From: Lysobacterales bacterium
GTDB lineage: Bacteria > Pseudomonadota > Gammaproteobacteria > Xanthomonadales > SZUA-36
Length of the DNA stretch: 64,000 bases
NCBI GenBank assembly: GCA_013042915.1
Contig: JABDPF010000033.1
Location: 1 to 64,000, forward strand
Reading direction: 5' to 3'
Shown: positions 37,518 through 53,620 of the stretch, piece after piece
How positions within the stretch are numbered: the first letter of the stretch is position 1
Layout: each line of letters begins with the position of its first letter
The notes under the pieces: model-generated
The model's input: only the letters and a program-made list of their open reading frames with translations
Databases searched by the model: none
Told to the model about the DNA's origin: nothing
Position numbers and translations under genes: made by a program

Positions 37518-37783
37518 AGTCGGCGCCCACCACGATCATCAACAAGCTCGGCCTGCACGCGCGAGCGGCCACCAGGCTCGTCAACCGCGCAACGGCATTC
37601 AAATCCGACATCAACCTGGTTCGGGGCCAGCGTTCCGTCAACGCCAAGTCGATCATGGGTGTACTGACCCTGGCGGCCTCGATGGGAACGGAGCTGGTCA
37701 TCCTTGCAGACGGCCCCGATGAGGAAGAAGCGGTCGCGGCATTGCTCAAGTTGATCAACGATCGTTTTGGAGAAGAGCAATGA
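37514..37783 (+). CDS. ptsH: HPr phosphocarrier protein
   Basis: 89 aa. Active His15 in NKLGLHARAATRLV and regulatory Ser46 in VNAKSIMGVLTLA, the correct target of HPr kinase. Start overlaps the EIIA stop by 4 bp; an upstream in-frame ATG would add 30 residues lying inside the EIIA gene. It is called ptsH-like here although NPr (ptsO) would be the nitrogen-PTS name. Confidence 0.93.
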   Translation: MKSAPTTIINKLGLHARAATRLVNRATAFKSDINLVRGQRSVNAKSIMGVLTLAASMGTELVILADGPDEEEAVAALLKLINDRFGEEQ

Positions 37784-39525
37784 CGTTGGCGCTGGCAGGC
37801 CATGGCGTCGCTCGAGGCATCGCCATCGGGCGTTGCCACCTCGTGATTCGCAACGAACTGGAAATCGGCGAACACCGGATCGTCGCGTCCGAAGTAGAGG
37901 ACGAAATCCGACGTTACCAGGATGCGGTCGAAGCGGCCCGCAAGCAACTGCGGGAACTCGCCGGCCGCATGGATCGGGGCGCCGCGGCGCCGGCCCAGGA
38001 AATCCTTCAAACCCACATCATGATGCTGGACGACTCGACCTTGCAGCGCAATACCGAGGAACACATCCGCAAAGAGCTTTGCAACGCGGAATGGGCGCTG
38101 CAGACCCAGCTCGAGGCCGTGTTGTCCGAGTTTCGCAACCTGGATGACGAGTACATTCGTACCCGCGGCGAGGACATCGGGCAGGTCGTGCGTCTGGTGC
38201 AGGGCAAGCTGGCGGCCGAGGACAGCGATCGGCACCTGGAGGGCATCCCGGACCGCCTGGCCGATACCCTCGTCATCGCTTCGGACCTCACGCCGTCCGA
38301 GTTGTCGGCGCTGTTCGAGCGCGGCGTGGGCGGCATCGTCACGGAGCACGGCGGACCCCACAGCCACGCGGCCATCATGGCCTCCAGCCTCGGTGTGCCG
38401 GCCGTACTGGGGGTGCGCCGCGCACGTTCGCTGCTGCGGGAAGGCGAGACCCTGATACTGGATGGCGGCAAGGGCCTGGTGTACGCGAGCCCGGACAACA
38501 CCATTCGCAAGCATTACCAAGAGGTGCAGGCCGAGACCCGCCGCTTTCGCGAAGCTCTCGAGAAGATTCGTGATCTTCCGGCCTCCAGCCTCGATGGTCG
38601 GCGCGTGGTCTTGATGGCCAACGCGGAGCGCTCCACCGAGATCGATCAGGCCATCCAGTCCGGCGCCGACGGCATCGGGCTTTACCGAACCGAGTTCTTG
38701 TTCATGGATGGCGGGCCACCCGACGAGTCCGAGCAGTTGGCGCATTACCGCTCCGCGGTCGAGGCGATGGACGGGCGGCCATTGACCATTCGCACACTGG
38801 ACCTGGGCGCCGACAAGCTGCCCGAGGTGCTCGATTTCTCGGAACCGGTTCGCAATGCCAACCCCGCGTTGGGTTTACGCGCAATCCGTTTGTGCCTCCG
38901 CGACAGCGCCCAGTTTAAAATCCAGCTGCGTGCCATACTGCGCGCCAGCGGCCACGGCCCCGTGCGCTGCCTGGTACCGATGATCACCAATCTCGAAGAA
39001 ATCACCAAGGTGCGCTCCCTGCTTGACGAGGCGCGTGCCGAACTCACCCATGAAGGCCTGGCTTTCGACCACGACCTGCCGCTGGGTGCGATGATCGAAG
39101 TTCCGGCCGCCGCCCTGGCGCTCGGAGAGCTCGGCCGCCACCTGGATTTCATTTCGGTCGGCACCAACGACCTCCTGCAGTACGCCCTGGCCGCCGACCG
39201 AGTGGACGAGCAGGTGGCGCACCTCTACGAACTGCAACACCCCGGCGTACTGCGCCTCATGCAGCACATCTTTCGCGAGGCCGGAAGGATGAAATTACCG
39301 GCATCGGTTTGCGGCGAAGCCGCCGGCGATCGTCGCTACACCCGCCTCCTGCTGGCCCTCGGGCTGCGCGATTTCAGCATGAGTCCGGGCAAGTTGCTCG
39401 AGGTAAAACAGGTGATACGCAATACCGACATCGGCCGCGCCACGGCCGCCCTGACCCGCTGGCTGAGCGACCCCACCGACCACCAGACCCCTCTGCTCGA
39501 AGCCCTGGACGCCTCGCAGACCTGA
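37780..39525 (+). CDS. ptsI: phosphoenolpyruvate-protein phosphotransferase (Enzyme I)
   Basis: EI autophosphorylates from PEP and passes phosphate to HPr. 581 aa, starting with ATGA overlap. Phosphohistidine His196 lies in EHGGPHSHAAIMASSLGVPA; PEP-binding barrel has IGLYRTEFLFM, VPMITNLEEI and SVGTNDLLQYALAADR, and near the end the Cys in LPASVCGEAAGD. No N-terminal GAF domain, so this is the short form rather than PtsP. Last gene of the PTS block before mgtE. Confidence 0.96.
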   Translation: MTLALAGHGVARGIAIGRCHLVIRNELEIGEHRIVASEVEDEIRRYQDAVEAARKQLRELAGRMDRGAAAPAQEILQTHIMMLDDSTLQRNTEEHIRKELCNAEWALQTQLEAVLSEFRNLDDEYIRTRGEDIGQVVRLVQGKLAAEDSDRHLEGIPDRLADTLVIASDLTPSELSALFERGVGGIVTEHGGPHSHAAIMASSLGVPAVLGVRRARSLLREGETLILDGGKGLVYASPDNTIRKHYQEVQAETRRFREALEKIRDLPASSLDGRRVVLMANAERSTEIDQAIQSGADGIGLYRTEFLFMDGGPPDESEQLAHYRSAVEAMDGRPLTIRTLDLGADKLPEVLDFSEPVRNANPALGLRAIRLCLRDSAQFKIQLRAILRASGHGPVRCLVPMITNLEEITKVRSLLDEARAELTHEGLAFDHDLPLGAMIEVPAAALALGELGRHLDFISVGTNDLLQYALAADRVDEQVAHLYELQHPGVLRLMQHIFREAGRMKLPASVCGEAAGDRRYTRLLLALGLRDFSMSPGKLLEVKQVIRNTDIGRATAALTRWLSDPTDHQTPLLEALDASQT

Positions 39526-39632
39526 AGTTCAAACACTGAACGGAGAGCGCCGCGCGGACCGCCCGTTCGGTTCCGCTCTCTACACACGCGGCTGGGTGCC
39601 AGAGCATGGCGGCAGTCATCTGACCAAGACCA

Positions 39633-39754
39633 GGCCGTGGGACGGTTGTGCCCCTTTCCAGGCTTTTGACGCCTGGACGGCGGCAAGAAGAGCGCCACAG
39701 GGATGTGCCCGAAAGGGAGCGTCCCCTGGAAAGGGGTGCAACCGTCGCACGGCC
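39633..39754 (+). repeat. long-stem structured element, copy 1
   Basis: Within the 304-bp gap between ptsI and mgtE. Left arm 39633-39662 pairs with right arm 39725-39754: 30 positions, one G-G mismatch, two G-U wobbles. The 62-nt inner region contains smaller hairpins: CGCC/GGCG with loop TGGAC (39670-39682), CACA/TGTG with GGGA tetraloop, and CCC/GGG with GAAA tetraloop. It shares architecture, loop sequences (ACAGGGATGT, GAGCGTCCCCTGG) and flanks (CCAGGCCGTG, CACGGCCGGGTT) with the element at 51268-51390. No ORF of interest. The remainder of the gap (39526-39632) shows nothing I recognise. Confidence 0.75.
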
Positions 39755-39765
39755 GGGTTAAGAAC

Positions 39766-39829: not shown

Positions 39830-41194
39830 ATGTCGGAACAGCAGCACGAAGAAAAAACAGCCCGTCATCTCGAACGACTCTCTGAGGCGCTGGATTCGGG
39901 CACCCAGTTCCAGGTTCGCAAGCTGCTCGGCAACCTGTCCGCCGCCGAGATCGGCGACCTGCTCGAGTCCCTGCCCGTAGCCAAGCGCCTCGCGGTCTGG
40001 GAGATGACCGATCCTGAACTCGATGGCGACGTCCTGGTGGACGTCAACGACGAGGTGCGTGCCACCCTGATTCGCGGCAGCACGCCGGAGGAACTGGTGG
40101 CGGCCGTTGGCGACCTGGACCTCGACGACCTCGCCGACATCCTGGACGATCTGCCCAACGCAGTCACCACCAAGGTCCTGAATGCGATGACGCAGCAGGA
40201 CCGGGTGCGGCTGGCGCAAGTCATGTCCTACCCGGAGGACTCCGCGGGCGGCTTGATGGATCCCGACTTCCTGTCGATCCGACCCGACGTGTCGCTGGAT
40301 GTCGTGCTGCGCTACCTGCGCATGCGCGAGGAACTGCCCGAAGTGTTCGACCTGTTGTTCGTCACCGACCGGAACGGCCGCTACCTGGGCAGCCTCCGAA
40401 TGTCCGTGTTGCTCACCCATTCGCCCGAAGCCATCGTCGGCCAGTTGATGGATACTTCGGTCAAACCCCTCCCGGTCAACATGCACGCCAACGAGGTGGT
40501 CACCGAGTTCGAGCACCACGACCTCGTGACCGCCCCGGTCGTGGACCACGACGACCGGCTGCTGGGCTGGATTTCGGTCGATGACGTGGTCGACGTGATC
40601 CGCGAGGCCGCGGAACATACCCTGCTGGTTGGCGCGGGCCTCGATGAAGAGGACGACATGTTTGCGCCGATCGTGCAGTCGGCCAGCCGTCGCTGGATCT
40701 GGCTCGGTGTCAACCTGGTGACCGCGATAATGGCCGCGCTCGTTCTGTATGCCTTTGAACCCACTCTCGACCAGATCGTGGCTACCGCGGTGCTGTTTCC
40801 CATCGTGATGAGCATGGGAGGCATTGCCGGCACGCAAACATTGACGCTGATGATCCGGGGCATGGCCACGGGACAGGTCAGCAACAGCAACTCCAGTGAG
40901 CTTTTGCGGCGCGAACTCGCCGTGGGCCTGCTCAACGGGATCGTGTTTTCCATCGTGGTCGCCGTGATCGCGATGATCTGGTACGACGATGTGTCGCTTG
41001 GCATGGTGATGGCGGCCGCGATACTGCTGAACCTGCTGGCCGGCGCGCTTGCCGGCGCGCTGATACCGGGAATTCTCAAGAAGCTGTCTATCGACCCGGC
41101 CCTGGCCGGCGGCGTGGTGCTGACCACCGTCACCGATGTCGTCGGAATTTTTGCCTTCGTGGGCCTCGCGACCTATATCCTGCTCGGAACCTGA
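39830..41194 (+). CDS. mgtE: magnesium transporter MgtE
   Basis: 454 aa Mg2+ channel. N-terminal superhelical domain (about residues 15-130; LEALDDLPNAVTTKVL-type repeats), tandem CBS domains (about 135-260; VMSYPEDSAGGLMDPDFLSI, MDTSVKPLPV), and five membrane helices (about 285-454) with the pore segment PIVMSMGGIAGTQTLTLMIR. Acidic N/CBS domains sense intracellular Mg2+. GGAG Shine-Dalgarno 9 nt before the ATG. Converges on tsaB with 3 bp between. Confidence 0.95.
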   Translation: MSEQQHEEKTARHLERLSEALDSGTQFQVRKLLGNLSAAEIGDLLESLPVAKRLAVWEMTDPELDGDVLVDVNDEVRATLIRGSTPEELVAAVGDLDLDDLADILDDLPNAVTTKVLNAMTQQDRVRLAQVMSYPEDSAGGLMDPDFLSIRPDVSLDVVLRYLRMREELPEVFDLLFVTDRNGRYLGSLRMSVLLTHSPEAIVGQLMDTSVKPLPVNMHANEVVTEFEHHDLVTAPVVDHDDRLLGWISVDDVVDVIREAAEHTLLVGAGLDEEDDMFAPIVQSASRRWIWLGVNLVTAIMAALVLYAFEPTLDQIVATAVLFPIVMSMGGIAGTQTLTLMIRGMATGQVSNSNSSELLRRELAVGLLNGIVFSIVVAVIAMIWYDDVSLGMVMAAAILLNLLAGALAGALIPGILKKLSIDPALAGGVVLTTVTDVVGIFAFVGLATYILLGT

Positions 41195-51166: not shown

Positions 51167-51230
51167 GTAGGAGTCCCCTTGGGGCCGAACGTTTCGTAGA
51201 AATCCGGGTCGGCCCCAAGGGGCCTCCTAC
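51167..51230. repeat. long inverted repeat in the glycosyltransferase-relA gap
   Basis: Left arm 51167-51188 and right arm 51209-51230, 21 of 22 bp complementary, loop 20 nt. Ends are GTAGGAG/CTCCTAC, resembling the short GTAGGAG-type repeats common in Pseudomonas and Xanthomonas genomes. Between convergent genes; no T-run on either side, so a termination role is uncertain. Confidence 0.6.
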
Positions 51231-51267
51231 AGAAAACCACGTATTTGCACACCTCTGCCCAGGACCA

Positions 51268-51390
51268 GGCCGTGCTGCCGTATACCCCCTTCCAGGCGTG
51301 TATGAGCCCTGGATGGGCTCAGACCAAGCGATACAGGGATGTACGCCCTGCGAGAGCGTCCCCTGGAAGGGGGTATACGGCAGCACGGCC
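51268..51390 (+). repeat. long-stem structured element, copy 2
   Basis: Left arm 51268-51296 and right arm 51362-51390 are perfectly complementary over 29 bp. The 65-nt inner region has GAGCCC/GGGCTC with loop TGGAT (51304-51320) and TACA/TGTA with GGGA tetraloop, corresponding to the two inner hairpins of copy 1. It lies between the convergent glycosyltransferase and relA genes. The rest of 51111-51403 holds only the other inverted repeat. Confidence 0.75.
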
Positions 51391-51403
51391 GGGTTTTAAT
51401 GGG

Positions 51404-53620
51404 TCAGCCGGACGCCTGGCGCATGCGCCGGGCTTCGATCACGTTGGAAACGCTGCCCAGGCGGCTCAGAAGTTCGCTGAGCTGCTCGAAATCGCGGACG
51501 CGGACCTTCAGGTTGATCGCTACCTCGTCCAGCGCCTCGTCGAGCCGGCTGCGAATATCGGTGACCTGGGTTTCGGAGGCCGACAGCACCGTCGAGATGT
51601 CGCGGATCAGGTCACGGCGGTCATAGGCGCGGACCAGAATCTGTACCGAGTAGCTGGTGGCAGGCTTGGCGCCCCAGTTCACCTGCAAGAGCCGCGGGCT
51701 GTTTTCCGCCCGCCAGTGAACGACCTGGCCGCAGTCTTCACGGTGGATAGTCACGCCGCGGCCCTGCGTCACGTATCCGACAACCGGGTCGCCCGGAACC
51801 GGGTGACAGCAGCGGGCTATCGTTGTCATCAGGTTTCCAACCCCTTCGATCACGATATCGCCGGCGCGGTCCGTTATTTCTCCCCGCTGACGAACGGGCT
51901 GACGGGTCACCAGGTCTTCGGCCTGGGGTTCGACCTCGGCGGCCTTCTTGCGGGCGATCGCGCTGATCACCTGACCGGCGGTCAGTTCACCGTTGCCGAT
52001 CGCGACGTACAGGTCGTCCTGGCTGTTTTGATGAAACTTCTCGAGCATATCCGGCAACTCGGACAGGTCGGTACCCAGCTTGCGGCTTTCCGCCTCGAGG
52101 GCTTCGCGACCGGCCTGCAAGTTTTCGTCCCGGCTCTCGCGTTTGAACCACTGGCGCACTTTGGCGCGGGCGCGGGCGCCGTTGATGTAGCCCAGTTTCG
52201 GATTCAGCCAGTCGCGGCTCGGGTTAGGGTGCTTGGCGGTGAGGATCTCGACGCGCTCCCCGGTGCTCACCGCGTAAGTCAGCGGCACGATGCGCCCGTT
52301 GACCTTGGCGCCACGGCAGCGATGCCCAACCTCGGTGTGCACCTGGTAGGCGAAATCCAACACCGTGGACCCGAGCGACAGGTCCACCACCTGACCGCGC
52401 GGGGTGAGCACGTAGACGCGGTCCTCGCTGGTCGCCGAGCGGAAGCTGTCCAGCAGGCTCTCGTCGTCCAGGTCTTCGTCGGAGGAATCCAGCAGCTGGC
52501 GCATGATTGCGATCTTGTTGTCGAACGCCGGGTCGGTGGGGCCGCCTTCCTTGTAGCGCCAGTGCGCCGCCACACCGAGCTCGGCGTGTTCGTGCATTTC
52601 CTGGGTTCGAATCTGCACCTCGACGGCCTTGCCTTCGTGGTTCGCCACCGCGGTATGCAACGACTGGTAATTATTGCCCTTGGGCGTGGTGATGTAGTCG
52701 TCGAATTCGCCGGGGATGGGTTGCCACATGGTGTGCACCAAGCCCAGCGCGCTGTAACACGATGGCAAATCATCGACCAGGACCCGCACCGCGCGCACAT
52801 CGAATAACTGGTGGAAATCCAGACCTTTGCGCTGCATTTTTTTCCAAATGCTGTAAATGTGTTTCGCCCGCCCCTTGACCTCGGCCCGGATGCCGGCTTT
52901 CTCCAGCGCTTCTTGCAGCCGGGTGATGAAGCGCTTGATGAAGGCCTCACGCTCGGTGCGGTGCTCGGCCACCAGGTTGGCGATCTTGCGGTACTGCGTC
53001 GGTTCGAGATGGCGGAACGCCAGGTCCTCGAGTTCCCACTTGAGTTGCCAGATACCCAGCCGGTTGGCCAGCGGTGCGTGGATCAGCATGGTCTCGCGCG
53101 CACGGTGCTCTGCCAGCGTGGCATCCTCGGCGGCCTCGCGCAGCAGCACCAACTGCCAGGACAAATCGATCAACACGACGCGCACGTCCTTGATCAGCGC
53201 CAGCAGCAGGCGCCGCAGACCTTCGGCGCTGCGCTCCGTGCCCTCCAGTGGCTGACCGGACTCGTAATGCTTGAGCTTTTCCAGGTCCTCCACCTGGCGC
53301 CGCACGGCAGCCGGCAACGCAGCGACGATCGTGCGAATATCGGCGCCGTCCTGCTCTGCCACGAAGATCATCGCGCAGGAGATCGTGACGGGATCGGCCG
53401 AGAGGGCGTCCAGCGTCGTCAGCAATTCGCAGATTCTGCCGGTGGCGTGAGGGTCGAGCGCCCCCGCTTCGTGCAGGTCGTGCAAAAGCTTGACGCACAT
53501 GTCACTGGCAGGCCCGACCGATTCGCGGTACGCCGACAACCACCGCTTGAGATCGGGGTAGTCGCAGGGCTCTTTCCTTACGCTGGATCGCACTGCCGGT
53601 TTGTTGGCCTGAACGCTCAT
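51404..53620 (-). CDS. relA: (p)ppGpp synthetase RelA (synthetase-only type)
   Basis: 738 aa, RelA/SpoT architecture: pseudo-hydrolase domain (about residues 30-200), synthetase (about 240-370), TGS (about 405-465), and C-terminal ACT (about 660-738). The catalytic HD pair of hydrolases is missing (LSADPVTISCAMIFVAE at that position), and the synthetase has GEFDDYITTPKGNNYQSLHT, the EFDD form of RelA rather than the RFKD form of SpoT. Makes ppGpp at starved ribosomes. Lies 15 bp downstream of hrpA. Confidence 0.94.
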   Translation of the reverse strand: MSVQANKPAVRSSVRKEPCDYPDLKRWLSAYRESVGPASDMCVKLLHDLHEAGALDPHATGRICELLTTLDALSADPVTISCAMIFVAEQDGADIRTIVAALPAAVRRQVEDLEKLKHYESGQPLEGTERSAEGLRRLLLALIKDVRVVLIDLSWQLVLLREAAEDATLAEHRARETMLIHAPLANRLGIWQLKWELEDLAFRHLEPTQYRKIANLVAEHRTEREAFIKRFITRLQEALEKAGIRAEVKGRAKHIYSIWKKMQRKGLDFHQLFDVRAVRVLVDDLPSCYSALGLVHTMWQPIPGEFDDYITTPKGNNYQSLHTAVANHEGKAVEVQIRTQEMHEHAELGVAAHWRYKEGGPTDPAFDNKIAIMRQLLDSSDEDLDDESLLDSFRSATSEDRVYVLTPRGQVVDLSLGSTVLDFAYQVHTEVGHRCRGAKVNGRIVPLTYAVSTGERVEILTAKHPNPSRDWLNPKLGYINGARARAKVRQWFKRESRDENLQAGREALEAESRKLGTDLSELPDMLEKFHQNSQDDLYVAIGNGELTAGQVISAIARKKAAEVEPQAEDLVTRQPVRQRGEITDRAGDIVIEGVGNLMTTIARCCHPVPGDPVVGYVTQGRGVTIHREDCGQVVHWRAENSPRLLQVNWGAKPATSYSVQILVRAYDRRDLIRDISTVLSASETQVTDIRSRLDEALDEVAINLKVRVRDFEQLSELLSRLGSVSNVIEARRMRQASG

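Follow-up and report, generated by a model that had tools for sequence, protein, structure and literature searches.

A gammaproteobacterial family of interspersed palindromic repeats with paired CsrA/RsmA-type GGA loops, a candidate dispersed RNA decoy

Introduction

ERIC repeats are imperfect palindromes of ~127 bp scattered between genes, and CANGGAYG is the RsmA motif. The SELEX consensus of CsrA is RUACARGGAUGU, carried on short stems, and one CsrA dimer bridges sites lying 10-63 nt apart, best over 18 (PMC7652899). In Xanthomonas, RsmU RNAs, which sequester RsmA, are derived from a 3'-UTR and are short (~80 and 120 nt) (PMC7694677). Other extragenic palindromes are known as mobile DNA: REPs are described as 20-40 bp long with a GTAG tag and, in Stenotrophomonas maltophilia, TIR repeat families of TIRYT tyrosine transposases are reported (Di Nocera 2013; PMC3733652).

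Here, we analyse an element that occurs twice in a 64,000-nucleotide stretch of a Lysobacterales genome (hereafter the window). The window belongs to contig C48; the assembly has 105 contigs, totals 2.69 Mb and is 96% complete. The window element is one copy of a class-wide interspersed palindromic repeat family, and both of its loops hold GGA motifs of the CsrA/RsmA type; these two features had been missed in a preliminary description of the DNA.

Two copies of a long branched hairpin

A pattern built from the two window copies found six exact places in the own genome, and a second pattern found more. Eight own-genome copies were used to build a covariance model (R1). The window features are the following:

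37780..39525, + strand: PEP-utilising enzyme, PtsI-like, upstream of copy 1 (Pfam PF02896, PF05524, PF00391)
39629..39758, + strand: copy 1, whole element (R1 match 39628-39759, 98.3 bits; fold z -10.7)
39633..39662, + strand: copy 1, 5' arm of the long stem (fold and arm complementarity)
39670..39682, + strand: copy 1, hairpin A, CGCC-TGGAC-GGCG (GGA at 39675-39677; unpaired 0.98, locus L033)
39696..39707, + strand: copy 1, hairpin B, CACA-GGGA-TGTG (GGA at 39701-39703; sequence, family alignment and fold)
39708..39717, + strand: copy 1, optional small hairpin, CCC-GAAA-GGG (sequence and family alignment)
39725..39754, + strand: copy 1, 3' arm of the long stem (fold and arm complementarity)
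39830..41194, + strand: MgtE, downstream of copy 1 (Pfam PF01769, PF03448)
51263..51395, + strand: copy 2, whole element (R1 match of 143.4 bits, to be read knowing that copy 2 is itself among the building sequences; fold z -11.7)
51264..51296, + strand: copy 2, 5' arm of the long stem (97% complementary to 51362-51394)
51303..51321, + strand: copy 2, hairpin A, TGAGCCC-TGGAT-GGGCTCA (GGA at 51311-51313; unpaired 1.0, locus L017)
51332..51343, + strand: copy 2, hairpin B, TACA-GGGA-TGTA (GGA at 51337-51339; sequence, family alignment and fold)
51362..51394, + strand: copy 2, 3' arm of the long stem (arm complementarity)
51404..53620, - strand: RelA/SpoT-type gene converging on copy 2 (Pfam PF04607, PF13328, PF02824)

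Both copies are where the preliminary description had placed them and have complementary arms: 34 nt that are 88% complementary in copy 1 (39629-39662/39725-39758) and 33 nt that are 97% complementary in copy 2 (51264-51296/51362-51394). Folded as RNA, they reach -87.4 kcal/mol (z -10.7) and -92.0 kcal/mol (z -11.7), respectively, far more stable than shuffles, none of which (0/200) was equally stable. Much of the structure is as first described: the stem of copy 1 has one mismatch and two G-U pairs, its GGGA and GAAA tetraloops are present, and the ends are conserved between copies while the central stem differs and yet still pairs. Two points need amendment. The three small inner hairpins are present in copy 1, but the third one, with the GAAA loop, is an optional insert absent from several copies. 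The hairpin with the GGGA loop is there in the sequence but does not form in the predicted minimum-energy fold of either window copy, where GGGATGT pairs with GCGTCCC and replaces the ACAGGGATGT hairpin. Opening the GGA of hairpin B by force carries a penalty of 7.0 kcal/mol for copy 1 and 3.6 kcal/mol for copy 2. Judging from these predicted folds, the window copies may be degenerate members of the family or may switch between two head folds.

The placement of copy 1 after ptsI and before mgtE agrees with the Pfam assignments, and the stop codon of the RelA/SpoT-type gene is ~9 bp from copy 2. Just upstream of copy 2 (window 51167-51230), GTAGGAGTCCCCTTGGGGCCGA and its inverse form a REP pair of the GTAG type. 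Several other copies of the element in this genome, which has no detectable Y1 transposase, are also flanked by similar repeats (GGCCCCAAGGGGC).

Anatomy and subfamilies

The element has a length of ~110-135 nt and a branched head. Its long stem, with a mean of 27.5 bp in the named loci, mostly ends in GAC/GTC and is followed by CGT, hairpin A (whose stem varies freely), GAGC, hairpin B (typically TACAGGGAYGTA), a tail (e.g., TTCACGGCGT), and the 3' arm. When the copies of the own genome are aligned, they share the head, and the outer stem varies through compensating changes. They form a subfamily with GGGGCG/CGTCCCC where others have GGACCG/CGTGTCC, and in some of them hairpin B is followed by one more small hairpin. 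Short 5' feet are specific to lineages: CTCTGCCCAA in the own genome, CTCGACT in Xanthomonas, and GGAAACTGTC in Stenotrophomonas-like genomes. Five genomes (L232, L236, L240, L247, L249) have an enlarged form of hairpin A at a single Stenotrophomonas-like locus; it contains nested hairpins, and AGGA recurs in the loops of two of them (fold checked for L240). In a Stenotrophomonas-like locus (L230), the forward element is chimeric, with the 5' arm of one stem type and the 3' arm of another, a sequence arrangement that suggests recombination between copies inside the head.

Distribution of the family

Many further copies, whose absence would have counted against the preliminary description, were found in the own genome and its relatives. 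R1 gave 70 matches in the own genome. Because the repeat is palindromic, many of these are the two strands of a single place, and when every place is counted just once, ~37 remain at E < 0.01. Of 20 relatives, 10 match R1; nine belong to the same family and one to the same order. With a wider covariance model (R2), 62 of the 369 sampled genomes of the class, own genome included, carry the repeat, and a phylum-wide draw of 299 genomes gave 13 with matches, all in the same class, the gammaproteobacteria; none was seen outside this class in that draw. Among the matches listed, carriers include Xanthomonas, Stenotrophomonas, Luteimonas, Marinobacter, Halopseudomonas, Microbulbifer, Rheinheimera and Methylococcaceae. 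Copies number at least 115 in a one-contig genome, at least 132 in a two-contig genome, and at least 50 in a genome of 1.7 Mb. Contig ends coincide exactly with elements in five contigs of genome G010 (C2, C5, C11, C13, C14) and in contig C47 of G004, which indicates that the repeat breaks short-read assemblies and that copy numbers of drafts are underestimates. No element matched phages, plasmids or viral contigs at the thresholds used.

The absence of a matching named family, noted at the outset, was borne out: at the gathering cut-off, Rfam gave nothing relevant in the window or in 14 relatives' loci, including none of the Csr/Rsm sRNA families. A full-length match to the molybdenum cofactor (Moco) riboswitch (RF01055) at window positions 39639-39752 might point to a related riboswitch or ligand-binding RNA. 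Yet it scores 26.6 bits, below the 36-bit cut-off, probably because both are long branched hairpins; there is no gathering match in the 14 relatives' loci, and the repeat has many scattered copies, mostly at gene ends and not in leaders. We consider this explanation highly improbable. No earlier description of the family was found in the open-access subset of the literature: the papers listed for exact core strings were unrelated, and the topic of repeats with CsrA yielded nothing on it. Because the search covered this subset, the newness of the family is provisional, and the S. maltophilia TIR family (PMC3733652) or RsmU (PMC7694677) may already describe members of it.

Covariation and strand-specific constraint

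The compensatory changes between the two window copies are real, and covariation is strong in wider alignments of many copies. Among the eight own-genome copies, 17 of 46 pairs have double-sided changes (8.0 in shuffles). The proportion is 13 of 13 stem pairs in a set of 32 diverse rows, where nearly all hairpins A enclose GGA with ~6 pairs, set in one of three registers. In 54 diverse rows of equal length, 95.0% of the cells are paired (60.4% in shuffles), 590 cells are double-changed (154 in shuffles), and the covarying pairs are 20 of 20 in the stem and 6 of 8 in hairpin A. The same is seen between two Marinobacter species, whose loci L129 and L140 (probably orthologous, because their flanks match) keep pairing via compensating changes.

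The constraint is not symmetric between strands. With stems delimited symmetrically and both kinds of mismatch scored alike, G-U outnumber A-C mismatches 157:19, 45:7 and 48:6 in three sets (250:32 overall), and the sense-strand RNA is more stable than that of the opposite strand in 47 of 54 rows. The excess of G-U over A-C means that selection acts on the strand with GGA in its single-stranded form. Selection at the RNA level had been proposed from the G-U wobbles of copy 1, and it is supported at least as single-strand selection; an excess of this kind would equally arise from a single-stranded DNA hairpin, and the bias alone does not separate RNA from single-stranded DNA. GTAG REPs, taken as a calibrator of G-T versus A-C in a DNA hairpin, had almost no mismatches in 17 distinct hairpins. 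The earlier suggestion of a nucleoid-protein site finds no support in these data, since a double-stranded DNA site needs neither strand-specific wobble tolerance nor conserved loop letters.

Loops of the CsrA/RsmA type

GGA is present in both loops of all 146 copies retrieved with patterns that left the loop letters free, in a set whose loci were partly gathered by a pattern fixing hairpin B, so that the GGA of this hairpin is partly pre-selected. In the commonest form, both loops are CANGGAYG and are ~23 nt apart, and CANGGANG is invariant in both hairpins of alignment A4. In hairpin B, the letter after GGA is unpaired with its A in 32 of 54 rows and A and Y are nevertheless kept, which means that the letters are conserved, rather than the pair. 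The sequence of hairpin B, (U)ACAGGGAYGU, fits the CsrA SELEX consensus, and the spacing of the two sites, 22-26 nt in most copies, lies inside the bridging range of a dimer. The loops of the nested hairpins gained in the enlarged variant are CAGGAC and resemble the CAGGA(U/A/C)G repeats of CsrB. In the predicted folds of A4, the GGA is unpaired with a mean of 0.99 in hairpin A and 0.61 in hairpin B.

The own genome encodes csrA, as do 47 of the 48 near-complete carriers; one carrier that is 98% complete (G215) shows no csrA. As a discriminating profile, the presence of csrA is uninformative, because most repeat-free genomes have it too.

Genomic context

In the named loci, for which genes were called with a simple purpose-made gene finder, convergent gaps are enriched in elements (31/73 elements versus 92/400 gaps) and divergent gaps are depleted (6/73 versus 79/400). 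In the convergent cases listed, the longer side is the 5' side in 18 of 20. Tandem gaps show no sense bias (22 sense and 30 antisense, all sets). The idea of a 3'-UTR element, put forward in the preliminary description, fits the enrichment between convergent genes but not the lack of sense bias in tandem gene pairs. Another candidate is a bidirectional 3'-end element, in which the head would be incidental and the hairpin, very stable as it is, would protect convergent genes from read-through or from 3'-5' exonuclease decay, in agreement with the convergent enrichment and divergent depletion. However, no T-run was found after the hairpin, nor were there convincing promoter or terminator signals at the elements or any consistent enrichment of them, and a symmetric block would need neither the conserved GGA head nor the strand-specific wobble bias. 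Enrichment at gene ends is also expected if selection removes insertions near promoters, as for REPs (PMC3733652). We regard such a 3'-end function as improbable.

Close pairs of elements on opposite strands are all divergent (41/41), with the 5' feet facing each other; 27 of them are in one genome, 227-392 bp apart, and they are often inside islands that also hold GTAG REPs. In one complete Stenotrophomonas-like genome (L255-L274), composite intergenic islands contain divergent element pairs with CAACAGC-type repeats and GTAG REPs as flanks, and the outer flanks of both elements are inverted copies of one another. At one orthologous Stenotrophomonas-like locus, several genomes lack the element and have two genes 5-23 bp apart, and others hold a single element or two divergent ones. 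In L245, L247, L248 and L249, short GTC repeats bracket the point from which the forward element is cleanly absent, as expected of hairpin-promoted deletion.

These dynamics resemble those of selfish DNA of the REP or MITE kind, in which a hairpin of sense-strand single-stranded DNA would be recognised by a transposase supplied elsewhere, with the conserved head as the recognition site and the likeness to CsrA sites coincidental or secondary. The copies are interspersed and amplified within lineages, which fits the non-autonomous mobile hairpin offered as one possibility in the preliminary description; their stems are lineage-specific, their short 5' feet conserved, and their orientation neutral relative to genes. 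The uniform divergence of close pairs, the mixing with GTAG REPs, and an orthologous locus at which the element is present, absent or changed in copy number fit as well, as does the precedent reported in S. maltophilia, where a tyrosine transposase is linked with TIRs that form a self-complementary family (PMC3733652). A partner transposase was not found: no Y1 transposase was detected in the own genome, one of the 8 among 48 near-complete carriers that have none. Of 40 Y1 genes, three have an element nearby, about what density predicts, and the 1.07 Mb of element neighbourhoods hold no Y1 gene, in a survey whose control search found all 40. Mobility by itself would also leave unexplained the class-wide retention of CANGGAYG loops and the GGA loops of the gained hairpins. 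On balance, we find this explanation somewhat unlikely.

The same figures (none in the own genome, 3/40 Y1 loci, none in 1.07 Mb) led us to reject a RAYT/TIRYT partnership. In one genome, an element (L329, G121:C36:52461-52538) lies ~130 bp from an IS200-type Y1 transposase gene that is present in three identical copies, the sole such close neighbour among the 40 Y1 loci. No element was found within 4 kb of two Y1 loci of one Stenotrophomonas-like genome.

Discussion

The explanation that we tentatively favour, with a chance that we put just below even, is that the family works as a dispersed RNA decoy for CsrA/RsmA, with a REP-like mobile palindrome as its carrier. If the elements are transcribed, the sense RNA would fold into a stem of ~28 bp and two small hairpins presenting GGA loops ~22-26 nt apart, and one CsrA/RsmA dimer could bind both. 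The transcribed copies together would act as a dispersed decoy buffering free CsrA, with the stem shielding the RNA from nucleases, and the copies would have spread as a mobile palindrome. We infer CsrA/RsmA as the partner mainly because of the loop letters. The main weaknesses of the decoy are its neutral orientation, the lack of a promoter found, and the sequestration of the hairpin B GGA in both window copies.

If each copy were a two-site decoy, then gain and loss of copies would retune a global regulator. It is a broader and more doubtful proposition that, across many gammaproteobacteria, a two-site decoy repeat which is interspersed and probably mobile helps to set how far the Csr/Rsm system is buffered. 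If CsrA/RsmA binds the repeats, the regulon-wide control exerted by this regulator would extend to a large unannotated RNA family in many genera, Xanthomonas, Stenotrophomonas and Marinobacter among them, and published data on RsmA/CsrA binding and RNA-seq could be searched for it at once. If the repeats are purely mobile DNA, they would be a widespread family of palindromes whose branched head is unusual, with conservation at the level of one single strand and no transposase assigned.

ERIC-type repeats were compared with the family by general description, and we know of no paired GGA loops in ERIC. The comparison with the S. maltophilia TIR family of the TIRYT ORF1152 is likewise by description (PMC3733652). 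Like the GTAG REPs and REPINs with their RAYT, the repeat is a high-copy extragenic palindrome enriched between convergent genes, often in pairs of opposite orientation. It differs from GTAG REPs in its size of ~110-135 nt, its branched head, its feet such as CTCTGCCCAA and its consensus without GTAG, and from REP/RAYT systems in showing no RAYT association. With respect to the Csr/Rsm sRNAs, the repeat has no promoter of its own that we could find and no Rfam match, and it is dispersed, in tens to more than 100 copies with two sites each and a long covarying stem. In common with CsrB/CsrC, RsmX/Y/Z and RsmU, it bears GGA on more than one hairpin, within CANGGAYG or CAGGA(U/A/C)G, and Xanthomonas, the home genus of RsmU, is among its carriers.
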